Positions 1-19,495 of a DNA stretch of 33,114 nucleotides are shown in pieces (position 1 is the stretch's first letter; each line of letters opens with the position of its first letter). The notes beneath the pieces were generated by a model, which saw only the letters and a program-made list of their open reading frames with translations, did no database searches and was not told the origin of the DNA. This stretch comes from a virus. The translations under genes were made by a program, and so were the position numbers. The stretch is taken from positions 1 through 33,114 of the IMG/VR virus record IMGVR_UViG_3300047328_000023; one strand, given 5' to 3'.

Positions 1-1
1 C

Positions 2-118
2 ACGGCGACGCAGGTGCCCGTGCTGCTGGCGAAGCTGCTACTGCAGGAGCTCGATCGCGTGAATGCCGTGCTGGCCATGCACATCAAGCACGCCGCCAAC
101 AAGCCCACCACCGACTAG
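2..118 (+). CDS. 3' end of an unidentified gene (partial)
   Basis: An open frame enters from the left edge and ends at TAG (116-118), giving 38 residues that end in HAANKPTTD. The visible part is helical, with a leucine-rich stretch (LLAKLLLQEL) followed by a short basic and polar tail. It is in the same orientation as everything downstream, and its stop codon overlaps the first bases of the structured leader that follows. The fragment is too short to assign a function. The reading frame is supported only by its openness and by the fit with the compact gene layout. Confidence 0.5.
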   Translation, partial: TATQVPVLLAKLLLQELDRVNAVLAMHIKHAANKPTTD

Positions 119-211
119 CCGCGGCGAGCGGCAGGCGCGCCGATCCCGGCACTTCAGCTGGGCGGCAACCAGTGGGGAACTGGTGGGAAACCGTCTGCCG
201 CTCCCGCGGCT
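117..211 (+). ncRNA. Candidate structured leader RNA, copy 1
   Basis: The region between the upstream stop codon and the next gene folds into a defined shape. A long closing stem pairs 117-137 with 192-211 (about 20 bp, one bulged C at 125, one G-U pair). Inside it is a hairpin made of GCCG (139-142), a two-base bulge, CCCGGC (145-150), a six-base loop, GCTGGG (157-162) and CGGC (163-166). A second small hairpin follows, CCAG (169-172) with CTGG (180-183) and loop TGGGGAA, then unpaired TGGGAAAC. The 3' arm ends 20 bases before ATG 232. A second copy at 2543-2641 keeps the architecture with different paired bases. I could not match it to a known riboswitch family. A cis-acting regulator of the downstream gene is the simplest inference. 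Confidence 0.65.
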
Positions 212-231
212 CTCTTTCAGGACTGATCGCT

Positions 232-1230
232 ATGAGTTCTTCGTTGTCGCTGGAACGACGCGCCACGCTGGCCGTCGAGGAACCAACCACCCATGCCGTC
301 GGCCTGCAGCGCCCGGCCGAGCAGTTCGCTGCACGCCTTAAGGCCCAGCAGTTTCTCTACACGGCGGTGGTGGAGAACTTGGAGAAGAACATCGACTTCG
401 GCGAACTGCCGTCGGGCGATGATGATTACAAGAAGAAGGGCGACAAGACGCCGCCGAAGTACATGCTGCTCAAGCCGGGCGCGGATCGCATCTGTGCCGC
501 CCTGGGCGCGCAGCCGCGCTTCTCGATCGTGGAGCAGTCGATCGATCACGATCGCCGCACCCCGTACACGAAGCGCAAGAAGGTCTGGCGTGATGGCGCG
601 AACGGGAAGCGCGCGTTCGACTGGAAGGAAGAGTCGGGCGAGTCGCTCGGCTTCTATCGCTTCGTCGTGCGCTGCGAAATCGTGAGTCACGAGACCGGCC
701 TTGTGCTCGGTGAGGACGTGGCGGTCTGCAGCTCCCTCGAGGGCAAGTACGTCGATCGCCCGCGCGAGTCCGAGAACACGATCCTGCAGATGGCGCAGAA
801 GCGCGCGCAGTCGGCCGCCGTCCTCCGCGCCACGGGGCTCTCCGGTCGCTTCGCCGGCGAAGGCGAACCGGTGACCGACGCCGATGAGGATGGCGTGGTG
901 AAGGACGCGCAGGACGGCATCACGCTCGCCCAGGCGCTCGCATATCAGCTGAACAAGGTGCCGCTCGAGACAATGACGCCGCGCGCGTTGCGGAGTGCCC
1001 GCACCTGGTGCGACGGCAAGCTACAGGACGCGCCGGAGGATGCGAAGCTGCTCCGCGCCTCGGCCATGATCGACATGGTGATCAAGCACCGCGAGACGAC
1101 GCCGCTCGCACAGAAGGACGAAGCCGCGCCAGCGCCCACCCCTGCCCCTCCCTCGCCGCCGGCGGCCACCGGCGATGACGTTGGCCTCGCGGATGACGAG
1201 GACGACGATGCCCTTGGCCTCCCCTTCTGA
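232..1230 (+). CDS. Putative ssDNA-binding or annealing recombination protein with SSB-like C-terminal tip
   Basis: The 332-residue protein starts at ATG 232, with AGGA at 219-222 as ribosome site; an earlier in-frame start at 172 lies inside the leader RNA and is rejected. Residues 30-210 form one globular domain. The segment NTILQMAQKRAQSAAVLRAT (182-201) recalls a helix found in phage proteins of recombination modules, but I cannot name the family with certainty. Residues 290-315 are a Pro/Ala-rich linker, and the protein ends in an acidic tail, DDEDDDALGLPF. That ending resembles the acidic, PF-terminated tip by which bacterial SSB recruits repair and replication proteins. Downstream lie a small partner and a DUF2303 protein in one tight operon. 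A role in recombination or replication on single-stranded DNA is an inference. Confidence 0.55.
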   Translation: MSSSLSLERRATLAVEEPTTHAVGLQRPAEQFAARLKAQQFLYTAVVENLEKNIDFGELPSGDDDYKKKGDKTPPKYMLLKPGADRICAALGAQPRFSIVEQSIDHDRRTPYTKRKKVWRDGANGKRAFDWKEESGESLGFYRFVVRCEIVSHETGLVLGEDVAVCSSLEGKYVDRPRESENTILQMAQKRAQSAAVLRATGLSGRFAGEGEPVTDADEDGVVKDAQDGITLAQALAYQLNKVPLETMTPRALRSARTWCDGKLQDAPEDAKLLRASAMIDMVIKHRETTPLAQKDEAAPAPTPAPPSPPAATGDDVGLADDEDDDALGLPF

Positions 1231-1231
1231 C

Positions 1232-1600
1232 ATGGACACCTCGACGAAACCGGTACCACCCGCGTTCCAGACGCTCTGCAACGCGGCAGAGGATGGCCGC
1301 CTGCTGGATGAGCTCAACCTTCGCACGCAGGAACTCGTGGGCGTGATGCGCTCCGAGCAGCAGGCGCGCGGCGGCAAGCCGAAGGGCTCGCTCACGCTGT
1401 CGTTCAGCTTCTCGCTCGACCAGCATGGCCTCATGGCAGTGCAGGCCAACGTCACGACGAAGGAGCCGAAGGCCGAGCGCTCGCGCTCGATCTTCTACGC
1501 CCTGCAGGACAACACGCTGTCCCCGAACAACCCGAAGCAGATCACGATGGATCTCGGCACTCCGCGCGAGGTCGCTCCCCCTGTCATGAAGGTGATGTGA
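1232..1600 (+). CDS. Conserved small protein of the recombination module
   Basis: This 122-residue protein starts at ATG 1232, one base after the previous stop codon; an in-frame ATG at 1175 would overlap the upstream gene by 56 bases and is less likely. The N-terminal third is helical (LLDELNLRTQELVGVMRSEQ). The centre alternates like beta strands (GSLTLSFSFSLDQHGLMAVQ). No catalytic motif, signal peptide or membrane segment is seen. Its stop is separated by one base from the next ATG, so the three genes 232-2531 look translationally coupled. Similar small proteins sit beside DUF2303 genes in other phages, as far as I recall, but no function is assigned. Confidence 0.7.
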   Translation: MDTSTKPVPPAFQTLCNAAEDGRLLDELNLRTQELVGVMRSEQQARGGKPKGSLTLSFSFSLDQHGLMAVQANVTTKEPKAERSRSIFYALQDNTLSPNNPKQITMDLGTPREVAPPVMKVM

Positions 1601-1601
1601 G

Positions 1602-2531
1602 ATGAGCACGCTGAATCACCTAAGCGATGACGCGAGCGGTACCGCTGCCGTCATCAATGCCGTCGAACGCCTGAGCGGCTTCGATCTGAATCACCTCAGT
1701 ATCAAGGCCGGATGGGAAGGCGACGTGCCGGTCGCGGTTGTGCCCGAAGGCAAGTCGCTGCAGTCGGTCAAGAAGCTGCTCGACGAGTACGCGACGGCGC
1801 CGGACCGCATCACCGGTACCGCGCACCTCCGTGACGAGGCCTCGTTCATCGCGCACGTAAACGAACAGAAGGAGCTGACCACGCGCATCTTCTGCGAGCC
1901 GACGGCATCGCCGCCCACCTTCACCGCGGTGTACGACTACCACGATGTCGTGAATGGCGAGCAGCGGCCGGCGTTCGGCGCGCACCGCGCGGTGTGGCCG
2001 CTCACGATGTCCAAGGAGTGGACCGCGTGGCTGTCGCAGGCCGGGAAAAGCATGTCGCCGCAGGACTTCGCCGAGTTCCTCGAGCTGCGCGTGCCGGATG
2101 TCTACTGGGGCGACCAGCAGAGCGACTACACGAAGCTCCTCGTGCAGCAGCTCGAGCTCCGCCTGGCCACGCCGTCGGCACTGATCGCGCTCTCGCGCAA
2201 CTTGGCGGTGAACGTCGACGTGCAGGTACGCCAGGCGCAGACCCTGTCGTCGGGCGAGATCGCGATCACGTACGTCGAGCAGCACAAGGATGGCGAGGGC
2301 CAGCCGATCCGCGTGCCGAACGCCTTCCTGATCGCCATCCCGGTCATCCAGGGCGGCCCGGCGTATCAGCTGCTCGCCCGCCTGGCGTACCGCATCCGCG
2401 AGGGGAAGGTCACCTGGTCGTATCAGCTGCACCGCACGGATCTCGCGTTCGATGCCGCGCTCAAGGAGATCGGCGAACGCGTGGCGCTCGAAACCGCGCG
2501 CACCGTGTTCCTCGGCAGCCCGGAGAAGTAA
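1602..2531 (+). CDS. DUF2303 (YfdQ-like) phage protein
   Basis: The 309-residue protein has the layout of the DUF2303 family, represented by YfdQ of an E. coli prophage. It has a segment on filling or padding a list (SLQSVKKLLDEYATAPDRIT), then SFIAHVNEQK, then a beta-rich core with TAVYDYHDVVNG and the conserved AHRAVWPLTMSKEWTAW region around residues 125-150. The C-terminal half is also beta-rich. The family is common in temperate phages next to recombination or exonuclease genes, but its biochemical role is not established. It starts one base after the previous stop. The gene is followed by the second structured leader rather than another coupled gene. Confidence 0.8.
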   Translation: MSTLNHLSDDASGTAAVINAVERLSGFDLNHLSIKAGWEGDVPVAVVPEGKSLQSVKKLLDEYATAPDRITGTAHLRDEASFIAHVNEQKELTTRIFCEPTASPPTFTAVYDYHDVVNGEQRPAFGAHRAVWPLTMSKEWTAWLSQAGKSMSPQDFAEFLELRVPDVYWGDQQSDYTKLLVQQLELRLATPSALIALSRNLAVNVDVQVRQAQTLSSGEIAITYVEQHKDGEGQPIRVPNAFLIAIPVIQGGPAYQLLARLAYRIREGKVTWSYQLHRTDLAFDAALKEIGERVALETARTVFLGSPEK

Positions 2532-2542
2532 GTCCACCGCGA

Positions 2543-2641
2543 GAGCCGCGCGTAGCGGCGGGTGCGTCGACCCTGACACCTCGGTCAGGCGACACCAGTG
2601 GGGATAAAGCTGTGAGAAACCACCCGCCGCTGCCGCGGCTC
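2543..2641 (+). ncRNA. Candidate structured leader RNA, copy 2
   Basis: This element has the same plan as 117-211. The closing stem pairs 2543-2564 with 2621-2641: 8 outer pairs, a small internal loop, and 11 inner pairs. The internal hairpin is GTCG (2566-2569), a two-base bulge, CCTGAC (2572-2577), a six-base loop, GTCAGG (2584-2589) and CGAC (2590-2593). A weaker CAG/CTG hairpin carries the loop TGGGGATAAA and is followed by unpaired GAGAAAC. The unpaired motifs CCAGTGGGGA and GAAACC are shared with copy 1, while most paired positions differ and still pair. The 3' arm ends 11 bases before ATG 2653, and that start has no clear ribosome site of its own. Confidence 0.65.
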
Positions 2642-2652
2642 CATTCCTGACG

Positions 2653-2997
2653 ATGCCTGAAACTTCTGCTCCCGTGACAGCGCTCGAATCCGCCCTCCAC
2701 GCTCTCGTGCGGCGGTGGACAGAGGACGTCGTCCGGCGCCGCGCGATGAGTATGCACGACATGACCGCCGACGTGATTCATTCCCTGGCGGCGGAGCTCG
2801 TGCAGGTGATGAGCGTGGCCAGTGTGGAGGACGAGGAGCTCTCGCCGGCGGAGTTCGCCGCCCTGCCCCACATCAACAAGTCCGCGTCGACCGTGCGGCG
2901 CTGGTGTCAGCACGGACGGATCGAATGCCGGCCCGTGGGCCGTGACTACCGCATCCGCCGCGGCACGCTGCCGCCGCGCATTGTGATGGCCTCGTGA
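2653..2997 (+). CDS. Excisionase-like helix-turn-helix DNA-binding protein
   Basis: The 114-residue protein has a helical N-terminal half and a C-terminal MerR/Xis-type winged helix at about residues 64-104: SPAEFAALPHINKSASTVRR, then WCQHGRIECRPVGRDYRI. The pattern of a helix, a turn, the recognition helix with TVRRW, and a basic wing matches excisionase-family proteins. It lies directly upstream of the integrase, whose GTG start overlaps its stop codon (GTGA), so co-expression is likely. By analogy it would bend attachment-site DNA and direct excision, but a regulator of early transcription is also possible. Expression may be governed by the structured leader immediately upstream. Confidence 0.65.
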   Translation: MPETSAPVTALESALHALVRRWTEDVVRRRAMSMHDMTADVIHSLAAELVQVMSVASVEDEELSPAEFAALPHINKSASTVRRWCQHGRIECRPVGRDYRIRRGTLPPRIVMAS

Positions 2998-4457
2998 GCA
3001 AGCCGGTCGTCGCGTGGCGCTACGAAGTGGGCATCAAGCCGCACAAGGTCACCGCGTTCGAGGATCTCGCGCGCGGTGGCGTCGTGACGCTCCGCTGGTA
3101 CGTCGGCAACGGGACGCAGCGGAAGCGCCGCCTCAACGCGCTCGGGTTCACGGTGCGCGGCGCGCGAGCCGCGCTCGATCGCGCGCAGGTCGCGCGCGCC
3201 ATGGCGGCCGCGGATGAACAGCACCTCGCCCTGGTGCAGGGTCGCGAGAAGGGCGTCCCTGTGGTGGTGATCGAGCCGCTGACCATCGAACAGGGCTGGC
3301 TGCGCGCCAAGCATCCTGACACGGGCAAGTGGAACAAGGATACGGCGCACCGGAAGGACATCGACCGCGCGATCAGTCGTGCGGTGCTCACGTGGGGCAA
3401 GGGCTTCACCTGGGATGAGGTCGACCGGGGGGCGCTGCGGAAGCTCTGGCGCCGTGAGCTCGTGCGCCTCCGGAACGCGGGCCATGACGGGTATCGTGGC
3501 GCGCAGCTGCTGGTCGATCTCGTGCTGGCCGTGGGCGCCTGGCTGCGCGATGAGCAGCTCGTGGCACCGACGGCGGCGCTCAAGTGGAAAGGAATGGACG
3601 CCGAGTTTCAGGCCGACGCCGGCGAGCACATTCCCAAGCGACCGCGATACACCGTGGAGGAATACCGGAAGCTTTTCGCCGCAGCATGGAAGGCGGATGA
3701 GCGCTATGGCCTGCTCTACGACTTGGGGGCCGAGTTTCGACTGGGACAGGTGTCGCCTACGAAGCGCTCCGAGCTCGATCGCGAGGGCGGCCGACTGCGC
3801 ATCCGTGGCCACGGCAAGAAGCGCGGCGAGGTGATCGTGTTCACCGATGCGCAGAAAGCGAACGTCGAGCGCGCGCTGACCATCGGTTACCTCGCGGGCC
3901 TCGAGGCCGCCTACGTCGCGAAAGAGATCGCGGACTACCCGTTGTTCCCCGGTGGCCATTTCCACACAGACGCCGAGGGGCACATGGTCTCGCGCGCTAC
4001 CTATGCCGAGCGCGATCCGGTCGATCGGTCTGCGTGGCAGACGTGGCACCGCCGCGCCGAGGAGATCGCCGAGATCCCGCACGTGAAGGGCCGTGGGCCG
4101 TACGGCGCGCGCCGCAGCGGCGTGGACGCTGCGAACGAGCTGAACATCAGCCGCAAGGGAATGCGCGCGTGGGGCGGCTGGGGCAACGACCAGATGCCTG
4201 ACAACGTGTACGCCGATCGTGAGCAAGACTCGGCGCGTGTGGAGGCCTCTGACGTGCGCGCGAAGGCGCGCGGACTGCCCTCAAGCACGCCACCGCCGAC
4301 ATCATCGACGCCCGGCTCAGACACCAACGAATTGCAAAAACCGTCGCAAAACCGTCGCATCACGCAAAACGGCGCGACATCCGAAGATGACGCGCCGTTG
4401 CACACCCAGACCGAACCACCACAACCACACGAGGTTAGCGATGTCGGCACACAATAG
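2994..4457 (+). CDS. int: Divergent tyrosine integrase
   Basis: The 487-residue protein starts at GTG 2994, overlapping the previous stop. An arm/core-binding region covers roughly residues 1-210. The catalytic domain shows the tyrosine recombinase landmarks in a degenerate form: an arginine in GAEFRLGQV (R249), a basic beta turn GHGKKRGEV (K275/K276), GPYGARRSG with R373 in the place of the HxxR motif, GGWGND (W396, where His or Trp is usual) and a candidate nucleophile Y406 in DNVYADRE. The first His of HxxR is not seen. A polar, Pro/Thr-rich tail of about 75 residues follows the active site. The stop codon abuts a tRNA-like 3' half at 4457, as expected for an integrase next to its own attP. 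Confidence 0.75.
   Translation: MSKPVVAWRYEVGIKPHKVTAFEDLARGGVVTLRWYVGNGTQRKRRLNALGFTVRGARAALDRAQVARAMAAADEQHLALVQGREKGVPVVVIEPLTIEQGWLRAKHPDTGKWNKDTAHRKDIDRAISRAVLTWGKGFTWDEVDRGALRKLWRRELVRLRNAGHDGYRGAQLLVDLVLAVGAWLRDEQLVAPTAALKWKGMDAEFQADAGEHIPKRPRYTVEEYRKLFAAAWKADERYGLLYDLGAEFRLGQVSPTKRSELDREGGRLRIRGHGKKRGEVIVFTDAQKANVERALTIGYLAGLEAAYVAKEIADYPLFPGGHFHTDAEGHMVSRATYAERDPVDRSAWQTWHRRAEEIAEIPHVKGRGPYGARRSGVDAANELNISRKGMRAWGGWGNDQMPDNVYADREQDSARVEASDVRAKARGLPSSTPPPTSSTPGSDTNELQKPSQNRRITQNGATSEDDAPLHTQTEPPQPHEVSDVGTQ
4341..4365 (+). repeat. Left-flank repeat, candidate integrase arm-type site
   Basis: Two TCGCA units 11 bases apart lie in the end of the integrase gene (CCGTCGCAAAACCGTCGCAT, followed by CACGC). 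A very similar block lies at 4608-4631 on the other side of the tRNA-like core. Paired repeats on both sides of a core are what integrase arm-binding sites look like. This is inference from position and similarity only. Confidence 0.4.
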
Positions 4458-4497
4458 CTGGGGGGAGACTCGAACTCCCGACCTCACGATTATGAGG
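4456..4497 (-). other. attP core: 3' half of a CAT-anticodon tRNA
   Basis: On the minus strand this block reads as the 3' half of a tRNA. It has the anticodon loop CTCATAA (4490-4496, CAT anticodon), the 3' strand of the anticodon stem, a five-base variable loop AGGTC, a perfect T arm GGGAG-TTCGAGT-CTCCC (4463-4479) and the acceptor strand CCCAGCT. No matching acceptor 5' strand (AGCTGGG) or D arm follows beyond 4497, so it is not a complete tRNA gene. A tRNA 3' half directly after an integrase gene is the classic phage attachment core, which restores the host tRNA on integration. The implied target is a host tRNA with a CAT anticodon (Met or modified Ile). Confidence 0.75.
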
Positions 4498-4607
4498 CAT
4501 GGCGTAAACGCAACGCCACCACGCACTTCGCTCGCCCCTTTAATAGTTGTAACCGGCCGCTCCGTGAGCGCTGGCGCTCGCTTCTTGTCCCGCGATGCGT
4601 GCAATGC

Positions 4608-4631
4608 GCGTCGCAAATCGTCGCATCGCGC
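4608..4631 (+). repeat. Right-flank repeat, candidate integrase arm-type site
   Basis: GCGTCGCAAATCGTCGCATC, continuing as GCGC, has two TCGCA units 10 bases apart and resembles the block at 4341-4365. The 4498-4607 stretch between the core and this repeat shows no convincing gene. It holds a short GAGCG/CGCTC hairpin (around 4566-4579) and an A/T-rich patch (TTTAATAGTTGTAA, 4539-4552) that might be a promoter or strand-exchange flank. No more can be said from sequence. Confidence 0.4.
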
Positions 4632-4646
4632 GGAGGGCCTCGCGTG

Positions 4647-4841
4647 ATGCACATGACCAATCTGTCGCAGCCTGCGACGGCGCCGACGGCTGATTTCGAG
4701 GCCTCGTGCACCGCCTCCGCCTGCCCGGCGCCGACGCCCGGCAGCCCGCTTTTTCAGGAGCTCACGGCGTCCGAATTGGTCATCGATCCGTCGCCGGATC
4801 GTGTGGTCGATCGGCCCGCGGTCGCGAGGACCGGCGCATGA
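4647..4841 (+). CDS. Small protein of unknown function
   Basis: The 64-residue protein starts at ATG 4647, nine bases after the ribosome site GGAGGG (4632-4637). It begins MHMTNLSQPATAPTADFEAS and is rich in Ala, Pro, Thr and Ser, with two cysteines (SCTASAC). The C-terminal third has a short hydrophobic stretch (LFQELTASELVI) and is otherwise polar and low in predicted structure. It is the first gene after the attachment region and overlaps the next gene by four bases (ATGA). I do not recognise a family. The strong ribosome site and the coupled junction are the main support that it is expressed. Confidence 0.5.
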   Translation: MHMTNLSQPATAPTADFEASCTASACPAPTPGSPLFQELTASELVIDPSPDRVVDRPAVARTGA

Positions 4842-5152
4842 TCACGAACGATCTGCCGCTCTTCGCCACGCACGCCGGCACGGCGCCGTTGCATCGCCGG
4901 AGTGATGCGCCGACCGCCATCGCGGCGGCCGAAGCCGTCGCGGACAAGCTGAGTGGCCGGCAGGCGATGGTGCTGGCCGCCTTCACCGCCGCCGGTGCGC
5001 ATGGCCTCACCGACCGTGAGCTCGAGCAGCGTCGCGAGTTCGCGCAGTGGGCGCCCTCGACGGCGCGCAAACGGCGCTCCGAACTCTTTCACCTGGGTAG
5101 GCTGGTGGACGGCGGCCGCCGCGACGGGCTGACCGTCTGGAGGCTCGCATGA
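4838..5152 (+). CDS. Winged-helix DNA-binding protein
   Basis: The protein is 104 residues, starting at ATG 4838 in an ATGA overlap with the preceding stop. Residues 45-104 form a winged helix: a helix that senses mixed repertoires (HGLTDRELEQRREFAQ), a second helix with STARKRRSELFHLG, and a wing ending LTVWRLA. This pattern, a turn into xTARKRRSEL followed by a short hairpin, is common in small phage proteins of the early region that bind DNA. The first 40 residues (MITNDLPLFATHAG) look like a flexible N-terminus. A regulatory or replication-associated role is plausible but not shown. Confidence 0.65.
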   Translation: MITNDLPLFATHAGTAPLHRRSDAPTAIAAAEAVADKLSGRQAMVLAAFTAAGAHGLTDRELEQRREFAQWAPSTARKRRSELFHLGRLVDGGRRDGLTVWRLA

Positions 5153-5679
5153 GCCGCCGCCTTCGCCGTCAGATCGGCAACGCCGCGCAGCGCCAGATGG
5201 CGATCGCCCGGCTCGTGTCGCAGACCGAAGCCCTCGTCGATGCCCCGCAGCCCTGGGGGGCGTGGCGCGAGCGGTCCCTCTCCGAGAGCTTGCGGCCGGC
5301 GCCGCATGGTGTCACGCAGATCTTCGAGAACGGCTGGTTCGCCGTGTCGATTCGCCCGATCGCGTCCGGCTACCACCTGTTCATCTCGAACGCGCCGGGC
5401 ACGCCGGTGCGCAGCTGGCACGACCTGCAGCGCATCAAGAACGAGCTGATTGGCTACGACCATACCGCCGTCGAGATCTTCCCACCGCAGAAGGAGGTGG
5501 TCGACCAGGCGAACATGACGCACCTGTGGGTGCTCAAGCTGTATCGGTCACTGCCGCCAGACTTCTCGCTGGTCCAGTGGATGCACGAGGCCGATGAGGC
5601 GCGGGCACGAGCCGCCGCTCGGGCAACGGCGCGAGACGCCGACGTCGACGTCGACGACGCCGCGGCGGTGCTCTCGTGA
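5149..5679 (+). CDS. Conserved phage protein (DUF7694-like)
   Basis: The 176-residue protein starts at ATG 5149 inside the previous stop (ATGA). After a basic N-terminus (RRLRRQIGNAAQRQ), a compact domain covers about residues 60-130, with VRSWHDLQRIKNELIGYDHT, AVEIFPPQKEVVDQANMTHL and WVLKLY. These blocks match a domain I recall as DUF7694, found in phages and alphaproteobacteria and without known activity. The C-terminal 35 residues are an Ala/Arg/Asp-rich tail. The compact fold with few catalytic polar clusters suggests a binding rather than an enzymatic role; that is inference. Confidence 0.6.
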   Translation: MSRRLRRQIGNAAQRQMAIARLVSQTEALVDAPQPWGAWRERSLSESLRPAPHGVTQIFENGWFAVSIRPIASGYHLFISNAPGTPVRSWHDLQRIKNELIGYDHTAVEIFPPQKEVVDQANMTHLWVLKLYRSLPPDFSLVQWMHEADEARARAAARATARDADVDVDDAAAVLS

Positions 5680-6101
5680 GCGCGTCCGTCTGGATGTCTC
5701 GAAAGGGCAAGATCGCCATGGGCGGCGGTCGTAAGATCAGCGTCGATGCGCTGTTCAGCGACGCTGCGCCCGGGATTGCCCTGCACGCTGGCCAGTGGCT
5801 CGATCTCGAGGGCAGCAAAGGGAAGAGCCAAGTCGACACAGCGTCGGGCTGGCGTCCTTACACCGTTGACAACGGCGCCGCGTGCGGACCGATCTTCTAC
5901 GACCTCGAGAAGGCCAGCGCCTACGCGATCAGCGTCGCCGCGCTCACCGACTGGAACACGGTCGGAAAGCTGGTGCCTGCCCCGCTCTACGCGAAGCTCA
6001 TGCGCCTCTGGTATCCAGCGGCCGGCAAGAAGCTCACGAAGGCGATGCGGGCCGAGCTCGCGCAGATGGAAGGTGAGACCGAGACGGCGGTGACGGCATG
6101 A
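5676..6101 (+). CDS. Hypothetical early protein
   Basis: The 141-residue protein starts at GTG 5676, overlapping the previous stop as GTGA. The sequence mixes short strands and helices, with a Gly-rich start (KGKIAMGGGRKISVDALFSD), a segment GWRPYTVDNGAACGPIFYDL, and a C-terminal helix LTKAMRAELAQMEGE. I see no signal peptide, membrane segment or catalytic motif. The next gene overlaps by four bases (ATGA 6098). No family is recognised; the gene is supported by length, codon use and its place in an unbroken coupled chain. Confidence 0.6.
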   Translation: MSASVWMSRKGKIAMGGGRKISVDALFSDAAPGIALHAGQWLDLEGSKGKSQVDTASGWRPYTVDNGAACGPIFYDLEKASAYAISVAALTDWNTVGKLVPAPLYAKLMRLWYPAAGKKLTKAMRAELAQMEGETETAVTA

Positions 6102-6337
6102 CCGCAACCCGAGAGTTCACCGTGAAGCGCGACAGCGTCCGCGCAAAGCTACTCTTCAACATGAGCGAGAACCCGGAGGCGCCGACATCGCTCCGGGATC
6201 TGCAGGCCGCCATCCCGGTCAATCCGAAGGCGCTGAGCGTGGAACTCGTGCACCTGCAGAAGCTCGGCGCGGTGGAGCGCGTCGGTCGTGGCCTCTACAT
6301 CCGCCACGTCGGTGAGAAGCGGGAGTTCCGGCAATGA
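6098..6337 (+). CDS. Small winged-helix protein
   Basis: The 79-residue protein starts at ATG 6098 in an ATGA overlap. Nearly the whole length is a winged helix: a first helix around SVRAKLLFNMSEN, a turn to LRDLQAAIPVNPKALSVELV as the DNA-reading helices, and a wing VERVGRGLYIRHVG. It resembles the MarR/ArsR-like single-domain proteins of phage early operons. The C-terminus (EKREFRQ) is basic. A transcriptional role is inferred from fold only. Confidence 0.6.
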   Translation: MTATREFTVKRDSVRAKLLFNMSENPEAPTSLRDLQAAIPVNPKALSVELVHLQKLGAVERVGRGLYIRHVGEKREFRQ

Positions 6338-6507
6338 CCAGAATCCCGCCCACGACCAAAACGCGGCCTACGACCAAAATCCCGCGATCTGCCGCGCTGC
6401 ATCTCAGCACGCGGGCGATCGTCGCCTTCTGCTGGGCAGCTTTTTCACGCTCGGGAATGAAACGGCTGGGACGAAACGGCTCACGCCGGAGCGTGCGCAA
6501 TGGCTGA
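6334..6507 (+). CDS. Possible 57-residue coupled ORF
   Basis: An ATG at 6334 overlaps the previous stop (ATGA), and the frame ends at TGA 6505-6507, overlapping the start of the next gene by eight bases. It would fill the only gap in this operon. The protein begins MTRIPPTTKTRPTTKIPRSA, encoded by tandem 18-bp repeats, then a short hydrophobic stretch (AIVAFCWAAF) and a basic tail. Another frame through the same bases reads NDQNPAHDQNAAYDQNPA, which looks equally protein-like, so the real frame is uncertain. It has no recognisable domain. Confidence 0.35.
   Translation: MTRIPPTTKTRPTTKIPRSAALHLSTRAIVAFCWAAFSRSGMKRLGRNGSRRSVRNG
6335..6388 (+). repeat. Three tandem 18-bp repeats
   Basis: Three imperfect 18-bp units follow one another: TGACCAGAATCCCGCCCA, CGACCAAAACGCGGCCTA and CGACCAAAATCCCGCGAT. 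The shared core is CGACCAAAA. A period divisible by three keeps any reading frame open. The block could be an amino-acid repeat, a protein-binding array, or simply a slippage product. Confidence 0.6.
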
Positions 6508-7129
6508 CATTCTGTTCCGTCCGCTTCGCGCCTGGCCGCACAAGCCGACGCCCACGTATCAGCAGAAGCCGTGGCCGAACGGCCGCAAGATCACGATCAC
6601 GTCGGCTCTCGACGCGGTCGACGATGAGCTGCGCCGGATGGGGTGCGCTCGCCGCGCCTACATCGAAGCCGACATCGACGAGAAGCACATCCGCCTCGAT
6701 GGCGAGCTGCGGTCCAGTGCGACCACGCGGTCGCCGGGCTGCATCATCTACGCGTCGCACCGCACGCTCGGCGAGCTCCGTTGGGCCTGCGATCGCTTCT
6801 CGAAGCTGCAGTTCAACATTCGCGCGATCGCAGCGACCATCGAAGCGCTGCGTTCGGTCGATCGGTACGGGTGCGTCCGTGATCAGCAGCAGTTCACCGG
6901 CTTCAAGGCGCTGCCTGGTGAAGCAGGAACGACGATGGAGCGCGATGCTGCGTTCGAGATCCTGCGGAAGTACTCACTGCTCTTCCTGCCGGCCGACTCG
7001 ACCGAGGAGACCATCGGCAAGGCGTTCCTGTCGGCGCGGGCTCGCGTGCACCCTGATCGCAACCAAGGCTACCAGGGCGCTTGGGATGAGGTGATAGCGG
7101 CAGGTAAGGTGCTGGGGGTGATGAAGTGA
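6500..7129 (+). CDS. Phage protein with a C-terminal J-domain-like segment
   Basis: The 209-residue protein starts at ATG 6500. The N-terminal ~135 residues form an unrecognised domain (GRKITITSALDAVDDELRRM and later ELRWACDRFSKLQFNIRAIA). The last 60 residues look like a J domain: a helix AAFEILRKYSLLFLP, a second helix TIGKAFLSARARV, the tripeptide His-Pro-Asp at 184-186 (VHPDRNQG), and a third helix WDEVIAAGKVLG. HPD between two helices is the signature by which J-proteins stimulate DnaK-type chaperones. Its place among early and replication genes suggests recruitment of the host chaperone for replication, as lambda does through host DnaJ; this is inference. The next gene starts in its stop codon (GTGA). 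Confidence 0.65.
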   Translation: MADILFRPLRAWPHKPTPTYQQKPWPNGRKITITSALDAVDDELRRMGCARRAYIEADIDEKHIRLDGELRSSATTRSPGCIIYASHRTLGELRWACDRFSKLQFNIRAIAATIEALRSVDRYGCVRDQQQFTGFKALPGEAGTTMERDAAFEILRKYSLLFLPADSTEETIGKAFLSARARVHPDRNQGYQGAWDEVIAAGKVLGVMK

Positions 7130-7260
7130 TCGCAGACAACCTCGCCCGCTATGGCTGGAAGGTGCTGGCCTTCACCTTCGCCGGGCTATTCGTCGCGTGC
7201 ATGGCATTCGCGATCGCATTCGAGCGACCAGCGGCGAGCTGGGGAGGCACGCGTGCATAG
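7126..7260 (+). CDS. Tiny single-span membrane protein
   Basis: A 44-residue ORF starts at GTG 7126, overlapping the previous stop, and ends at TAG 7258-7260. One hydrophobic segment (VLAFTFAGLFVACMAFAIAF, residues 13-32) is preceded by a basic and aromatic start (NLARYGWK) and followed by a short tail. The layout predicts an inner-membrane protein with a short periplasmic or cytoplasmic tail. Function unknown; small early membrane proteins of phages often act on host envelope or exclusion processes, which is only a family-level suggestion. Confidence 0.5.
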   Translation: MIADNLARYGWKVLAFTFAGLFVACMAFAIAFERPAASWGGTRA

Positions 7261-7384
7261 CACCCCTGAACTCGGCCTCGTGGCACTCGCATTCCTCGTG
7301 TTCGGTCTCGCCATCGGCTTCGGCTGGTGCGATCGGATCTGGCGCGAGCACAACGCGCAGAAGGAAGGCACGGATGCCGGCTGA
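7253..7384 (+). CDS. Second tiny membrane protein
   Basis: A 43-residue ORF starts at GTG 7253, five bases after a strong ribosome site GGGGAGG (7241-7247), overlapping the previous gene by eight bases. It has one membrane segment (LGLVALAFLVFGLAIGFGW, about residues 8-26), then a charged helix CDRIWREHNAQKEG. The pair 7126-7260 and 7253-7384 forms two short membrane proteins in a row, in different frames. No family is recognised. Confidence 0.5.
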   Translation: MHSTPELGLVALAFLVFGLAIGFGWCDRIWREHNAQKEGTDAG

Positions 7385-7664
7385 GGAGAAGATCTACCGA
7401 TCAGGGCGTACCCGCTCCCTCCTGCGATACCTGCACAAGAATGGCCCAACCTGCCGCTTCGTCGGTGCTTGCGTCTCTCTGCCTTCCGCCAACGTGATGC
7501 GAAAGCTGGAAGCAGCGGGCTTTATCGAAGTCGTGCAGTCGTATCGGATCGCTGACATGCGCCGTGATCTGCTCACTCTGGAACTGACGATCACCGAGAA
7601 GGGCCGCGCGTGGCATTGCAGCGTTACAGGAGACGCTCCGGCGCCGCTGAAGCTCACAGAATGA
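7374..7664 (+). CDS. Winged-helix protein
   Basis: The 96-residue protein starts at ATG 7374 with AAGGAAGG upstream, overlapping the previous gene. A basic first helix (SGRTRSLLRYLHKNG) leads to a helix with ANVMRKLEAAGFIEVV and a wing region LELTITEKGRAWHC, the usual order of a MarR-like winged helix. Cys residues are scattered and do not form a zinc motif. The start is chosen because the longer in-frame version from 7197 would run across two upstream genes. It probably binds DNA; the target is unknown. Confidence 0.55.
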   Translation: MPAEEKIYRSGRTRSLLRYLHKNGPTCRFVGACVSLPSANVMRKLEAAGFIEVVQSYRIADMRRDLLTLELTITEKGRAWHCSVTGDAPAPLKLTE

Positions 7665-7912
7665 GCCCCGCGATGAACTACAAGGAGGCCACAGGCGTGC
7701 GAGCCCGCACGGACCTGTCGGCCAATGCGCGATCAGGAGAACCCTGCGAGCGCCTGACTGATGAACAGCTCATCAAGTTCGCTGAGTGGATGATGCAGAC
7801 TATCCGGACGGCAGAAGACCAAGACCTCACGCAGCTGAGCATCCCGGTGCGCTTCTCGCGCAAGCTGGTTGATGCCACGCTCGAGGTGGTGAACCGCCGA
7901 GGTGTGCGCTGA
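7661..7912 (+). CDS. Hypothetical early protein
   Basis: The 83-residue protein starts at ATG 7661 in an ATGA overlap; a nearby internal ATG at 7673 is the alternative. The first 30 residues are polar and probably disordered. The rest is helical: LTDEQLIKFAEWMMQTIRTA and SRKLVDATLEVVNRRG. There is no catalytic or membrane signature. The next gene's ATG lies at the last base of this stop codon (TGATG), so it is coupled to the replication initiator gene. Confidence 0.55.
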   Translation: MSPAMNYKEATGVRARTDLSANARSGEPCERLTDEQLIKFAEWMMQTIRTAEDQDLTQLSIPVRFSRKLVDATLEVVNRRGVR

Positions 7913-8916
7913 TGGCGAAGCCGAAGATGCGGCGTATCCGCGGCGAGTATCGACCATTTTTCGAGGCGCTGTTCACGGGCAAGGACTTCAACGTCCTCAG
8001 CCCTGACGCGAAGCTCGGCTACATGTTCGTGAAAGGGTTGAGCGGCGCTGCTGGCATCCGTGTGTGGCCAGCGTTCACCGAGCAGCTCGCGGAACTGACG
8101 GGGATACCGACTCCTCGCATGAAGCGCGCCATTTCGGATCTCACGGCGTCGAACTGGCTGCAGACAGAAGGCAGTATTGTGTGGGTCGTGCGCGGGATCG
8201 ACTTCGAACCGCAGATGGTTGCCGGCAATCCGAAGCATCAGGTGTGGCTGCGTGAGCACCTCGATTCCCTGCCTCGCCTCGCCATCGTCGATCGGTTCCG
8301 TGCGCACAACGCCGCGTGGTTCTGCGCTGGTGTGGAGCCATCGAGCGACGGAGATGGTCCGGGTGTATCGGATAGGGTATCGGATAGGCCATCGGATACC
8401 CTATCCGATACCAATCCCTTACCAGTATCCCTTACCACATCCCAATCCCTGTCCCTGACCACGACCAGTGCACCGGTGCGAGCCGCAGAAGGCTCGCACC
8501 GCATCCGCCTCGCCGCCGCGGCCAACCAAGGCATTACGAAACTGTTCGGCGGTGAGCAGCCAACGCCGGTGCGTTGGGATCATGCCGGGAGCCATCAGTG
8601 CGCCGATGAGCTCGAGGCCGCCGGCGTCGATATCGCGTTCGCCGAGTCGGCTCTGTTCCGCATCGCCAGCACGCAAATGCCAGGGGATGGCCGCGCACCG
8701 ACGTCGCTCCGGTACTACACGGCCGCCCTGCTCCATGCCTGGCGCGCAGAGGAGGCGCACCGCATGGCCGCGACGCTGGCCACGCCTGGCATCTCGTCCG
8801 CGGGATCGAGCAAGGATCCGAGCTACTTCACGGCGATCCGCTTCGCTCGCGAGGGTGATGCTGAGTGGCAGGCATACTGCCGCGAGCACAACATCGACTG
8901 GGAGATCGCTGCGTGA
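7912..8916 (+). CDS. Putative replication initiator (O-like)
   Basis: The 334-residue protein starts at ATG 7912. Residues 1-100 look like a winged-helix DNA-binding domain: GEYRPFFEALFTGKDFNVLS, then KLGYMFVKGLSGAAGIRVWP, and TGIPTPRMKRAISDLTASNW as recognition helix. The middle (about 145-190) is a Ser/Asp/Thr-rich linker encoded by a repeated, less GC-rich DNA tract. The C-terminal half is helical and ends IDWEIAA. A DNA-binding N-terminus, a linker whose DNA carries iterons, and a following helicase-loader-like gene is the same plan as lambda O with its internal origin. No ATPase motif is seen. Assignment as initiator is inference from this layout. Confidence 0.6.
   Translation: MAKPKMRRIRGEYRPFFEALFTGKDFNVLSPDAKLGYMFVKGLSGAAGIRVWPAFTEQLAELTGIPTPRMKRAISDLTASNWLQTEGSIVWVVRGIDFEPQMVAGNPKHQVWLREHLDSLPRLAIVDRFRAHNAAWFCAGVEPSSDGDGPGVSDRVSDRPSDTLSDTNPLPVSLTTSQSLSLTTTSAPVRAAEGSHRIRLAAAANQGITKLFGGEQPTPVRWDHAGSHQCADELEAAGVDIAFAESALFRIASTQMPGDGRAPTSLRYYTAALLHAWRAEEAHRMAATLATPGISSAGSSKDPSYFTAIRFAREGDAEWQAYCREHNIDWEIAA
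8365..8437 (+). repeat. Iteron array, candidate phage replication origin
   Basis: Four copies of an 11-bp unit start at 8365, 8377, 8389 and 8401, a strict 12-bp period: GTATCGGATAG twice, CCATCGGATAC, and CTATCCGATAC, which is the inverse form. Since TATCGGATA is nearly palindromic, each unit could bind a dimer. Two direct repeats ATCCCTTACCA follow at 8414 and 8427, then a C/T-rich tract to 8460. The array lies in the linker-coding part of the putative initiator gene, where lambda-type origins sit. Confidence 0.55.
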
Positions 8917-9500
8917 GTGACATCAAGCCCATCAAGCCGTCGCCTGCCCTGATCTCGGCCACGCGTCGTGCACTCAACATCCTCGCGCCGCACTGGTCGA
9001 CGAAGTTCAAGTTCCTGAGCGGAAGCAGCGAGGCAGACAACGCGATGCTCGAAGCGTATGCCAGCGCGTGTTCTTACGCGCACATCGACTTCCTCGAGCA
9101 GGCGGCCCGCACATGGGTGGTGAACAGCAGGTTCGCGCCAACTCCCGCGGAGTTCGGAGAGTACGCTCGCGAGGCCACACCGTTCCCGCAGCTCACGGTC
9201 ACTTCGGCACACGAGCCGCCACCGGTGAGCACGGCCAAGCATGGCCGGCAGATCGACCACCTGAACGCACTCGCGAAGGACCTACTGCGATCGCATGGCC
9301 ACACCCGGTTCGTAGTGCCGATCAGTCAGTGCTGGGCACTGCTCCTCGAGGTGCAGGATCGCCCCGAGCGCACGGGTGTCGTGGTGTCCGGCGATGTGCC
9401 GGACGACGTCTGGCTTGAGACCGTGCGTGCGTGGATCAAGGGCGCGAGACCGAAGGGCAACCCCATGAACAACCTGGGGCTCAACCAGAGGCTCGCATGA
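8913..9500 (+). CDS. Putative helicase loader or replication accessory protein
   Basis: The 195-residue protein starts at GTG 8913, overlapping the initiator's stop (GTGA). Helical blocks dominate: LEAYASACSYAHIDFLEQAA, RTWVVNSRFAPTPAEFGEYA and IDHLNALAKDLLRSHG. The phrase rFAPTPAEF after a helix recalls phage helicase-loader proteins of the G39P type and other P-like partners; I hold this loosely. The C-terminal part has VWLETVRAWIKGA and a polar tail. It has no Walker motifs, so it is not a DnaC-type ATPase. Position directly after the initiator supports a role in loading host helicase. Confidence 0.45.
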   Translation: MSDIKPIKPSPALISATRRALNILAPHWSTKFKFLSGSSEADNAMLEAYASACSYAHIDFLEQAARTWVVNSRFAPTPAEFGEYAREATPFPQLTVTSAHEPPPVSTAKHGRQIDHLNALAKDLLRSHGHTRFVVPISQCWALLLEVQDRPERTGVVVSGDVPDDVWLETVRAWIKGARPKGNPMNNLGLNQRLA

Positions 9501-9619
9501 GCGCACTCCAATGCGACACGGCGTTGCGGGGCGCCGTGCAGGTCTACCCAATTCGGGGTAGCCTGCCGGCTGGCGGTACGTGGGGCGTACGTCAGCCGGT
9601 TCGCGGGGAGTGTCGATGA
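9497..9619 (+). CDS. Possible 40-residue coupled ORF over three hairpins
   Basis: ATG 9497 overlaps the previous stop (ATGA), and the frame ends at TGA 9617-9619, which overlaps the next start (ATGA at 9616). It would encode 40 residues starting MSALQCDTALRGAVQVYPIR. Perfect coupling at both ends favours a real gene. Against it, the same DNA is an array of three strong hairpins that may be the true function. No domain is recognised. Confidence 0.4.
   Translation: MSALQCDTALRGAVQVYPIRGSLPAGGTWGVRQPVRGECR
9517..9599 (+). promoter_or_regulatory. Three consecutive hairpins before the packaging module
   Basis: Hairpin 1 pairs CACGGCG (9517-9523) with CGCCGTG (9532-9538). Hairpin 2 pairs CTACCC (9544-9549) with GGGTAG (9556-9561). 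Hairpin 3 pairs CCGGCTG (9566-9572) with CAGCCGG (9593-9599), with an inner GTACG/CGTAC stem. No T-tract follows, so it is not an ordinary terminator. The ribosome site GGGGAG of the next gene begins six bases after hairpin 3 ends. Confidence 0.55.
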
Positions 9620-9996
9620 GCACCCGACCACAGCGCACCGAGGCACAGATCGAGGCCGCCTGTGATCGCATCATCGCCCAGGCGAAAGGGAGCATCGTGA
9701 TGATCGGCCGCGGCAAGGTCGATCACTCGCCTGGTCTCCCGAGTCGTCGATACCACGTGCATGGCCGTCCGATGTGGTGGGCGCCTCGCTCGCCACGTGG
9801 CCATCTGTCTCGCGCAACCTCAGAGCTGCTCACGTCCGAGTACTCGATGGGCCAACTGGTGGGCGCTGGTGACGATGACGCGTTGCGCCACGTGGTGAAT
9901 CTTCTTGCTGGAGATCACTTCGAGGCAGCCGTCCATCGTGCGTGGCAGTACTTCCGCACGGTGGCTGATCGTGGGATGGTCGGGCGCGCATCGTAG
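9616..9996 (+). CDS. Hypothetical protein upstream of HNH nuclease
   Basis: The 126-residue protein starts at ATG 9616, five bases after GGGGAG (9605-9610); a longer in-frame start at 9580 lies in the hairpin array and lacks a ribosome site. It has a helical start (RTEAQIEAACDRIIAQAKGS), a basic, aromatic middle (SRRYHVHGRPMWWAPRSPRG) and a helical end (HFEAAVHRAWQYFRTVADRG). The His/Arg/Trp-rich centre could bind nucleic acid, but no known fold is recognised. It sits at the boundary between early and packaging genes. Confidence 0.5.
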   Translation: MSTRPQRTEAQIEAACDRIIAQAKGSIVMIGRGKVDHSPGLPSRRYHVHGRPMWWAPRSPRGHLSRATSELLTSEYSMGQLVGAGDDDALRHVVNLLAGDHFEAAVHRAWQYFRTVADRGMVGRAS

Positions 9997-10043
9997 CTGT
10001 GAAACCCACTTGTGCAACTCTGCCGTGGCCCTACCCTGCGGCC

Positions 10044-10547
10044 ATGCCTTCCTCTCCGCTCAAGCTCTGTGCCTACGCTGGCTGCGCACGCCGTACCGAT
10101 CACCGCGATCGGTACTGTGTGCAGCACACGCGTGTGGCCGCCAAGGAGCGAGAGGCACGCCGCGCACCACGTGTCATCGATGGTGAGCTGCAGTCCGGCG
10201 GCGGTCGTTCGCCTGACTGGCGAGCGTTGCGTGCCGAGGTGCTCGCGCGCGATCCGATCTGCAAGGACTGCGGTGTGAAGCCCTCGAAGCACGCCGACCA
10301 CGTCCTACCCAAGCGTGAAGGCGGACGTGACGTCGCGTCGAACCTTCGCGGTCTGTGCCACTCATGCCACAGTCGGAAGACGGCCGCGGTCGACGGCGGC
10401 TTCGGCAACCCGAAGCGGGCGACGGGGAGGGGGGTCGCGAATCCTTCAGCCGACGTGCTTTCATCCGCGCGCCCCCCTTTCTTCACGCGCCCGCAGGTTT
10501 CGCCGACACGTTTGGACGGCGCCGACGCGCGCCCAGGCGGGCGCTGA
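10044..10547 (+). CDS. HNH endonuclease of the packaging module
   Basis: From ATG 10044 the protein has 167 residues; a GTG start at 9999 would add 15. The HNH core lies at residues 68-113: a zinc Cys pair C73-x2-C76, the ADH motif (H86), N100 in VASNLRGLC, and the second Cys pair C105-x2-C108 with a closing His (CHSCHSRKT). A separate knuckle near the N-terminus has C9, C14, C25 and H28. The last 50 residues are basic and Pro-rich. HNH proteins next to terminase genes in cos-type phages help the large terminase cut DNA at the packaging site; position here fits that role. The small terminase ATG overlaps its stop codon (TGATG). Confidence 0.85.
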   Translation: MPSSPLKLCAYAGCARRTDHRDRYCVQHTRVAAKEREARRAPRVIDGELQSGGGRSPDWRALRAEVLARDPICKDCGVKPSKHADHVLPKREGGRDVASNLRGLCHSCHSRKTAAVDGGFGNPKRATGRGVANPSADVLSSARPPFFTRPQVSPTRLDGADARPGGR

Positions 10548-11032
10548 TGGGTCACCGTGGGCCGCCACCGACGCCCACCGCGCTTAAGCTGGTGAAAGGC
10601 AACCCGGGCAAGCGTGAACTGAACAAGCGCGAGCCGAGAGCGACCGGCTCACTCGGAGCGCCGCCGGATCATCTCGGCGCCGTCGGCAAGGCCGCGTGGC
10701 GCAACCTGGTCAACGTCATCGCCGGCATGAACCTCGAGAGCGGCAGCGACCGCCGTGCCCTCGAGCTCCTCGTGTCGACCTACGAAGAGTGGCGCGAAGC
10801 GCGCGCGCTCGTGGTCGAGCATGGCCTGACGTACGAGCGCCTCACGGCCCAGGGCGAGAAGATCATCGTCGCGCGGCCGGAGGTTGCCATCGCGGCGGAT
10901 GCGATGCGCCGCCTGCACCGCCAGCTGCTGGAGTTCGGCCTCACGCCGAGCGCGCGGTCTCGCGTCGAGGCTGGGGAGAAGGAGACGGTGGATCCCATGG
11001 AGGAGTTCCTCAAGCGCGGTCAGCAGGCATGA
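10547..11032 (+). CDS. terS: Terminase small subunit, P27-type
   Basis: The 161-residue protein starts at ATG 10547 in a TGATG overlap with the HNH gene. The start (MGHRGPPPTPTALKLVKGNP) is the typical N-terminus of the P27 family, whose members carry a PTxLKLLxGNPGKR box. A helical body follows: AAWRNLVNVIAGMN, ALELLVSTYEEWREARALVV and AADAMRRLHRQLLEFGLTPS. The conserved ending LTPSARSRV is also present. Small terminases form rings that recognise the packaging site and hand DNA to the large subunit, whose gene overlaps by four bases (ATGA). Confidence 0.9.
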   Translation: MGHRGPPPTPTALKLVKGNPGKRELNKREPRATGSLGAPPDHLGAVGKAAWRNLVNVIAGMNLESGSDRRALELLVSTYEEWREARALVVEHGLTYERLTAQGEKIIVARPEVAIAADAMRRLHRQLLEFGLTPSARSRVEAGEKETVDPMEEFLKRGQQA

Positions 11033-12765
11033 CGGCCACCGCGACGAAGCGCACGCGCGCGAAGCCGCCGGCACCACCGACGCCACCCGCGCCGTGGGAA
11101 GACTTCTGCGATGCCGTGCTCAGTGGCGTGCGCCCGGTCGGCTCGCTCGTGCTGCTCGCGGTTCAGCGGCACCGGCGTGACCTGACCGAAGGCGCCGCGC
11201 GAGGATTGCGATTCGACGCGAATTCGGCGCAGCACGCCATCGACTTCTTCGGCTTCCTCCGCCACTCGAAGGGCGAGTGGGCCGGCACCCCGTTCGTGCT
11301 CGCCGACTGGCAGACATTCGTCATCGCCATGATCTTCGGATGGCGGCGCGCCGATGGGACGCGCCGCTTTCGCGATGCGTATGTCGAGATCCCGCGCAAG
11401 AACGGAAAGTCGACACTGGCCGCGGGCGTGGGCCTCTACCTGTTCTTCGCCGATGGCGAGCAGGGTGCCGAAGTGTTCACGGCCGCGACGAAGCGCGACC
11501 AGGCGCGCATCGTGCACGAGGAAGCGGTCCGCATGGTCAAGGCGTCGCCGCTGCTGCGCAGCCGCATCGGAAGCGTGCGGGACAACCTGCACGTGAAGGC
11601 TACGAACTCGAAATTCGAGCCGCTCGGTGCTGACGATGACACGATGGACGGTCTCAACGTCCACGCCGCGATCGTCGACGAGTACCACGCCCACAAGAAT
11701 TCTGGCGTCTTCGACAAGCTGAACACGGCCACCGGTGCGCGTCAGCAGCCGCTGATGTTCACGATCACGACGGCCGGCGCCAACAAGGCGAAGAGTCCGT
11801 GCGGCCAGAAGAACGAGTATTGCCAGCGGGTGCTGCTCGGGACCGTCGAGGACGATGATACCTTCGCGTTCATCGCCACGATCGATGAGAAGGACGACTG
11901 GCGCGACGAGCGCGTGTGGGCGAAGGCTAACCTTAACCTCGGCACGAGCGCGAAGCTGGACGATCTCCGGCGCAAGGCGCGCGTGGCGATGGAGATGCCG
12001 GGCGCACAGAACAGCTTTCGCCGCCTCCACCTTAACCAGTGGACCGAGCAGTCGGAGCGCTGGATCGATCTCGAGGTATGGGACTCGTGCGCCGGTGAGA
12101 TTGAGGCGCGAGAGCTGCCGGAGTTTCTCATGGGGCGCGTGTGCTACGGCGCGCTTGACCTCGCGTCGACCAGAGACATCTGCGCGCTCACGCTCTGGTT
12201 CCCGCCAACGGACGATGAGACGGCCGGATACCTCGTGCCATGGCTATTCGTGCCGAACGAGAACATCCTCGAGCGCGACCGGAAGGACCGCACCACGTAC
12301 TCGGCGTGGCGCGACAACGAGTGGCTCGTCGCGACGCCAGGCAACATCACGGACTACGAGTTCATTCGGTCGACGGTGCACGAGGTGGCCGAGCGGTACC
12401 AGCTCGAGCAAGTCGCCTACGACCGCTGGAACGCCACACAGCTAGTCACGCAGCTGACCGACGACGGGATCGATATGGTGCCGTTCGGTCAGGGCTTCGC
12501 ATCGATGGCCGCGCCGACAAAGAGCTTCGAGGCGAAGGTGGTCGGGCGCACGCTGGCGCATGGCGGTCATCCCGTCCTCCGCTGGATGGCGCAGAACGTC
12601 TCGATCCGCCTCGACCCCGCCGGCAACATGAAGCCCGACAAGTCGACGTCCGGCGAGAAGATCGACGGCATCGTCGCGGCCATCATGGCCATCGGCATCG
12701 CGGAGCTGCAGGCCTCGGATTCGACCTCCTCTGTGTACGACCACGAAGATCTCAAGGTGCTATGA
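11029..12765 (+). CDS. terL: Terminase large subunit (packaging ATPase/nuclease)
   Basis: The 578-residue protein starts at ATG 11029 (ATGA overlap); the longer open frame upstream is in the shadow of the small subunit. The ATPase half shows a Walker A-like motif RKNGKST (123-129) and Walker B IVDEYHAH (215-222). The nuclease half has acidic residues in CYGALDLASTRDICALTLW (D377, D383) and a late acidic region near DGIVAAIMAIG, as in RNase H-like terminase nucleases. It belongs to the HK97-like Terminase_1 group. It cuts concatemers and pumps DNA through the portal. Confidence 0.95.
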   Translation: MTATATKRTRAKPPAPPTPPAPWEDFCDAVLSGVRPVGSLVLLAVQRHRRDLTEGAARGLRFDANSAQHAIDFFGFLRHSKGEWAGTPFVLADWQTFVIAMIFGWRRADGTRRFRDAYVEIPRKNGKSTLAAGVGLYLFFADGEQGAEVFTAATKRDQARIVHEEAVRMVKASPLLRSRIGSVRDNLHVKATNSKFEPLGADDDTMDGLNVHAAIVDEYHAHKNSGVFDKLNTATGARQQPLMFTITTAGANKAKSPCGQKNEYCQRVLLGTVEDDDTFAFIATIDEKDDWRDERVWAKANLNLGTSAKLDDLRRKARVAMEMPGAQNSFRRLHLNQWTEQSERWIDLEVWDSCAGEIEARELPEFLMGRVCYGALDLASTRDICALTLWFPPTDDETAGYLVPWLFVPNENILERDRKDRTTYSAWRDNEWLVATPGNITDYEFIRSTVHEVAERYQLEQVAYDRWNATQLVTQLTDDGIDMVPFGQGFASMAAPTKSFEAKVVGRTLAHGGHPVLRWMAQNVSIRLDPAGNMKPDKSTSGEKIDGIVAAIMAIGIAELQASDSTSSVYDHEDLKVL

Positions 12766-12977
12766 CGCGACGCCTCGCCTGGTATGACATCGGGTTCGTG
12801 AGCGGATTGCTCCTCATCGCTGGCGGCCTCGCCTTGTGGTCGGCGCCGTTGGCGCTGGTGGTCGCCGGCGTCGAACTCGTGGCGATCAGCGTCCTGGCTG
12901 CCTTGCGTGCCCGTCCGTCCGCATCCTCACCATCTGCCCCGCCGACTCATGGGACTACTGACCGCGCTGCTTCCTGA
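12762..12977 (+). CDS. Small two-span membrane protein
   Basis: The 71-residue protein starts at ATG 12762 in the terminase stop (ATGA) and overlaps the portal gene by 29 bases. Two hydrophobic stretches cover residues 10-27 and 29-48 (GFVSGLLLIAGGLALW and ALVVAGVELVAISVLAAL), followed by a Ser/Pro-rich tail. Small membrane proteins between terminase and portal occur in many siphophages, without known function. A reading in which it is only a coding remnant is possible but the coupling favours expression. Confidence 0.6.
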   Translation: MTRRLAWYDIGFVSGLLLIAGGLALWSAPLALVVAGVELVAISVLAALRARPSASSPSAPPTHGTTDRAAS

Positions 12978-14658: not shown

Positions 14659-14660
14659 CC

Positions 14661-15299: not shown

Positions 15300-15415
15300 C
15301 CTGCCCTCACAACGACCGCACGACGCGGTCTGTATCGGCGGCAGGGTAGTGCGCACGCGTCCCTTGATGCGTGAGAACCTGCCGGCACACAGGCGACAGC
15401 GCGACCCCACGTGTC
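15300..15415 (+). promoter_or_regulatory. Structured 5' leader of the capsid gene
   Basis: Between protease stop and terminator there are several potential stems. CCTGCC (15300-15305) pairs with GGCAGG (15340-15345), enclosing GACCGC/GCGGTC (15314-15330, loop ACGAC). ACGCGT (15355-15360) pairs with ATGCGT (15367-15372). GCCGGCAC (15381-15388) pairs with GTGTCGGC (15411-15418) and overlaps the first bases of the terminator arm. A TTGACC hexamer at 15288 could be a -35 box, but no good -10 follows. Confidence 0.5.
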
Positions 15416-15469: not shown

Positions 15470-15479
15470 GCGTTGGGAA

Positions 15480-15502: not shown

Positions 15503-15510
15503 AACCGGAC

Positions 15511-16824: not shown

Positions 16825-16854
16825 CCGCCGCTCTCACTTCCAGAGGATTTTCAG

Positions 16855-17301: not shown

Positions 17302-17303
17302 CC

Positions 17304-19483: not shown

Positions 19484-19495
19484 CCGGAGCATTTC

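Follow-up and report, generated by a model that had tools for sequence, protein, structure and literature searches.

The window analysed here is the whole 33,114-nucleotide stretch of the virus record IMGVR_UViG_3300047328_000023, a 33-kb record of an HK97-type temperate siphophage in which terminase, portal, protease, head, tail tape measure and endolysin were recognised. A Gemmatimonadota bacterium may be the host, to judge from the integrase, which among the collected plasmids matches only one from Gemmatirosa, where an excisionase homologue adjoins it. The early genes are co-directional, on the plus strand. A truncated upstream gene ending with the stop codon TAG (116-118) is followed by a gene of the phrog_10048 family, whose function is unknown (232-1230), a phrog_204 family gene of the same operon (1232-1600; ORF 1175-1600), a DUF2303 gene (PF10065; 1602-2531), a gene for an excisionase-like HTH protein (2653-2997), which has no clear Shine-Dalgarno sequence and whose N-terminus was aligned with the Gemmatirosa homologue, and an integrase gene (phrog_1; 2994-4457). 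Directly 3' of the integrase lie 38 nt of the 3' half of a tRNA-Met(CAT) (4459-4496, minus strand), the probable attP core; such a position is what one expects of attP. The excisionase-integrase operon proposed in the initial annotation is borne out by these features. Further along, an orphan ORF (9616-9996, plus strand) is followed by an HNH endonuclease gene (9999-10547) and the terminase. Gene calling shows that most genes overlap or abut, and the three elements described below, e1, e2 and e3, occupy three of the few larger gaps.

The early gene order is kept in a relative, L212, where it reads RecT (PF03837), phrog_204, DUF2303, excisionase-like gene and integrase. Since RecT (5389-6561 in L212) occupies the place upstream of phrog_204 and DUF2303, the product of 232-1230 is, by position, a probable recombination protein, and the swap between the two suggests that this unclassified gene encodes one that has gone unrecognised. 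The recombination operon that had been proposed downstream of e1 is thus plausible. The protein has a relative in Synechococcus phage Sc-Yong805-2 (32% identity, residues 36-212); its AlphaFold model (pLDDT 54) was set aside. L212 also contains, between the excisionase-like gene and the integrase (8690-9050), a short coding unit in tandem (cgcaaccgcgagaag...).

The first two elements, e1 (117-211) and e2 (2543-2641), lie on the plus strand and are built on the same plan, and both the coordinates and the anatomy given for them in the initial annotation proved right. A closing stem, P1, of 8 + 12 bp with a small, identically placed internal loop encloses two adjacent hairpins, P2 and P3 (0-2 nt apart across the elements); the outer ends read AGCCGCG...CGCGGCT. 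P2 has helices of 4 and 6 bp separated by a 2-nt 5' bulge and is capped by a hexaloop, which is ACUUCA (151-156) in e1 (P2 at 139-166) and ACCUCG (2578-2583) in e2 (P2 at 2566-2593). P3 has the loop GGGGA in e1 (168-184) and GGGGAUAAA in e2 (2596-2612), and is followed by the single strand J3/1, GGGAAACC (185-192) and UGAGAAACC (2613-2621), respectively. The unpaired motif CCAGTGGGGA...GAAACC, noted earlier as kept in both copies, is found only at e1 and e2 within the window (expected 0). Also as described earlier, both elements fill the space between a stop codon and the next start. The 5' end of e1 is inside the stop codon TAG of the truncated gene and its 3' end is 20 nt short of ATG 232, while e2 begins 11 nt past the stop codon TAA (2529-2531) and finishes 11 nt before ATG 2653. 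The Shine-Dalgarno sequence after e1, AGGA (219-222), is unpaired, 8 nt beyond P1.

The folds are stable, with an MFE of -67.7 (z -6.15) for 117-211 and -60.6 (z -4.89) for 2536-2641, and none of 200 shuffles matched the stability of either segment. Several coding segments in the window have fold z-scores equal to or lower than those of the elements, so fold energy alone cannot single the elements out, but covariation does. An alignment of e1 and e2 contains 58 paired columns with 14 differences, and in both copies every one of the 29 aligned pairs is intact as a Watson-Crick or G-U pair; six pairs are altered on both sides and two on one side. When the same 14 substitutions were scattered randomly over the paired positions, a mean of about 6.2 pairs was broken, and an outcome with no broken pair did not occur in 200,000 trials. 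The earlier observation that the paired bases differ and still pair is thus upheld. As a pair the two copies covary strongly, yet being only two they fall short of family-wide proof. There are 3 G-U pairs in e1/e2 and 6 in e3, with no A-C opposites, which assigns the structure to the plus-strand RNA, i.e. to the coding direction.

Two other readings of e1 and e2 were tried and rejected. An antisense RNA is disfavoured as the minus-strand folds are weaker, and a coding explanation fails as the plus frames of e2 contain stops and no frame explains the pairing.

Other structured spots were seen in the window. The strongest fold z-score belongs to a 20-bp hairpin (CCTCAAGGAGCGCTGCTCG...) at 20263-20308 (plus strand) inside ORF 20235-21119, and a hairpin of about 20 bp made of repeated TATCGGATAGGG units lies at 8365-8411 (plus strand) within ORF 7912-8916. 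The gap 15300-15510 is highly structured throughout and contains GTGAGAACC, which resembles the e1/e2 strand GTGRGAAACC.

A third member, e3 (9503-9613, plus strand; fold z -6.2), had been overlooked in the initial annotation. It was flagged at 9511-9610 by a window-wide scan of folding z-scores and is matched by the descriptor search described below. It is diverged: P1 (9503-9516/9601-9613) encloses an extra hairpin (9517-9538), P2 (9539-9565; 4 bp, 1-nt bulge, 6 bp, loop AAUUCG at 9550-9555) and P3 (9566-9599), which holds GUGGGG at 9580-9585. The GAAACC of J3/1 is missing, and e3 is a looser match than e1 and e2. It sits between the stop codon TGA (9498-9500) and ATG 9616, its 3' arm ends 2 nt before that ATG, and the Shine-Dalgarno-like GGGGAG of ORF 9616 (9605-9610) is mostly inside the 3' arm of P1. 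A 40-codon ORF (9497-9619, plus strand), for which no relatives were found, overlaps e3 and has ATGA overlaps with both neighbouring genes; if it is real, e3 may be dual or coincidental.

Common to all three elements is a bulged hairpin whose hexaloop reads A-M-Y-U-C-R, with GUGGGG in the hairpin after it. A descriptor of these features (bulged P2 hairpin, loop A.YUCR, GUGGGG downstream) matches the window at exactly three places, each of them intergenic and on the plus strand; it was relaxed at loop position 2 and in the bulge (1 or 2) after e3 had been seen, and is therefore not fully blind. In 3.16 Mb of background loci the geometry was matched 1630 times, 21 times with GUGGGG and once with the loop, but never with both, and 60 Markov-shuffled windows gave no match. 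The hexaloop, L2, can pair with the UGGG of the P3 loop, L3, in one register in all three elements, and at the four shared paired positions L2 varies only by exchanging pyrimidine for pyrimidine or purine for purine opposite G and U. The pairing is weak and rich in G-U wobbles. The best reading is that e1, e2 and e3 form a new family of cis-acting structured leader RNAs at the heads of gene modules, namely a recombination-like block, the excision/integration genes, and the orphan ORF with the HNH nuclease and terminase. The role proposed initially, coordination of recombination and excision, is too narrow for a family whose third member precedes ORF 9616, the HNH nuclease and the terminase; what stands of the proposed new cis-regulatory RNA is the conserved, covarying fold that has no Rfam counterpart.

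Relatives of the elements were sought in several collections. In agreement with the initial comparison by eye, in which several riboswitch consensus sequences gave no match, a search of the whole window against Rfam 15 gave no match at the gathering cut-off to any of the 4227 models, and at E up to 10 only unrelated chance matches, none of them to a riboswitch, the purine riboswitch included. A loose motif scan of IMG/VR returned matches judged to be chance, without a corresponding fold; stricter scans found none in IMG/VR and four chance matches in GTDB genomes, and a shortened motif gave 10 chance matches in IMG/VR. The covariance model R1 had no match in 80 full related phage records, 80 DUF2303 loci or 149 genomes from the phylum of L125, which is titled Frankiales, and blast of the elements against phage and plasmid records gave chance matches or none. 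No such element is present at the corresponding gene junctions of L212 or of a Gemmatirosa prophage (L126). The homologues with compensatory changes that the initial annotation looked for in other genomes were thus returned by none of the searches. This absence is weak evidence, since motif scans, which need an exact match, would pass over members that had diverged as far as e3, and since the searches covered collections other than Gemmatimonadota genomes.

It is useful to compare the elements with the put sites of phage HK022. The latter, putL and putR, are antiterminator RNAs of two adjacent stem-loops located downstream of the early promoters (PMC9378689). The similarities are that one temperate phage carries two or more copies, related but not identical, of a structured RNA of about 70-100 nt that precedes gene blocks and has two adjacent stem-loops, though in our elements these are enclosed by P1. 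The differences are that put has no closing P1 and follows the early promoters, while our elements are intercistronic and have no promoter that we could find. As to mechanism, put suppresses termination by binding the zinc-binding domain of the RNA polymerase beta' subunit. The nut sites of phage lambda, too, are cis-acting RNA signals that recur at the heads of phage operons, as the present elements do; unlike nut, these share no conserved boxA-like sequence across the three copies and form a larger structure.

We tentatively propose, as the likeliest mechanism, that the elements are put-like recognition tags read by the transcription machinery. The model starts from observed properties, i.e. 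the fold and the compensatory changes of e1 and e2, and the strand, position and copy number of the elements. The elements would be transcribed in the plus direction between genes of the phage, P1 would draw the two adjacent hairpins together, and the P2 hexaloop (AMYUCR) probably kisses the GUGGGG of P3, so that a compact fold could be kept while the helix sequences drift. The nascent RNA tag at the head of each block (recombination, excision/integration, HNH/terminase) would be bound by RNA polymerase or an antitermination-type factor, and transcription would then run through the module that follows, as with HK022 put or lambda nut. What we infer is the kissing of the loops, the identity of the binding partner and the step of antitermination. 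The variable distance to the ATG (20, 11 and 2 nt for e1, e2 and e3) suits a tag that is independent of ribosome-binding-site spacing. Circumstantial support comes from a strong intrinsic terminator, a GC-rich stem followed by TTTTT, at 15416-15469 (plus strand) inside the structural operon. The major head gene (start 15511) follows after 41 nt, which leaves scant space for a promoter, and RNA polymerase would therefore have to read through the terminator. Against the proposal, no sigma-70-like promoter was found in 1-5200, including upstream of e1 and e2, nor a promoter-like site in 5000-21000, with the reservations that the consensus may not be that of the host and that only the 116 bases preceding e1 could be searched upstream of it. 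Likewise against it, a single transcript would need just one put-like element, no homologue was found in other genomes, e3 has no GAAACC, the L2-L3 pairing is weak, and the corresponding junctions of relatives are without the element.

Close behind comes a translational gate, which we regard as possible. Here P1, which reaches from the preceding stop codon as far as the border of the following ribosome-binding site, would be opened or locked by a terminating ribosome, a bound protein or a ligand, and the translation of the next module would be coupled or repressed. The position of the arms fits this idea, the 5' arm starting at a stop codon or shortly after it and the 3' arm ending close to the next ATG, as do the Shine-Dalgarno sequence mostly buried in P1 of e3 and the want of a clear one before the gene after e2, access to which is perhaps controlled. 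However, the Shine-Dalgarno sequence after e1 is free, and a plain gate has no need of conserved loops. This variety (mostly in a stem in e3, free in e1, none in e2) argues against a single simple occlusion mechanism and, together with the constant loops, for recognition by a factor.

It is also conceivable, if rather doubtful, that we are dealing with an undescribed class of phage RNA, in which a P2-P3 kissing-loop module with a closing stem near the start of the next gene marks the heads of modules, and one trans-acting factor or the polymerase controls several modules jointly. Phage-linked cases occur among the structured RNA candidates of comparative genomics. Such candidates have been found through covariation in bacteria and metagenomes (PMC2864571, PMC8040213). 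The fold of e1-e3 differs from them in matching none of the Rfam models.

Less probable is a mobile or repeated DNA element (REPIN-, MITE- or attC-like) that landed in intergenic gaps. Like REP/REPIN sequences, the elements are intergenic, about 100 nt long and bounded by inverted arms that are themselves palindromic (GCCGC...GCGGC); e1 and e2 flank a gene block as direct repeats, and the equivalent junctions in relatives are devoid of the element. However, REPINs exist as many near-identical genomic copies together with a RAYT transposase, while the 33 kb hold two similar copies and a diverged one, and no RAYT or other transposase turned up when 20 proteins were compared with PHROGs. Compensatory changes in the helices with conserved loops, the G-U strand bias, the identical orientation of all three and the lack of recognisable target duplications also speak against it, phage and plasmid records yielded no further copies, and the integron attC end boxes (GTTRRRY / RYYYAAC) are absent from the element ends. 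Nothing points to the repeats being a known mobile element. Quite improbable, too, is a role in mRNA processing or stability, in which the structure between cistrons would set the 5' end of a module transcript after RNase cleavage; the very stable P1 at module heads, the plus strand and the variable start-codon distance would agree with it, but processing alone does not explain the conserved L2 and L3 loops. A small-ligand riboswitch sensing a metabolite during phage growth is very unlikely, since the likeness to the purine aptamer is one of architecture only (in e1/e2, P1, P2 and P3 around a three-way junction, loop-loop complementarity and a purine-rich conserved J3/1), there is no conserved core, junction residues differ, e3 has not retained J3/1, Rfam holds no matching riboswitch and the downstream genes are non-metabolic.

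With three copies whose helices have diverged, a single genome supplies natural mutants for structure-function tests. Should the elements be translational gates or repeats instead of tags, they would still represent an RNA family absent from Rfam. If they are put-like or otherwise protein-read tags, the recombination, excision and packaging genes of this phage would be coordinated by RNA and not by DNA operators, and in a host group whose phages have hardly been studied.
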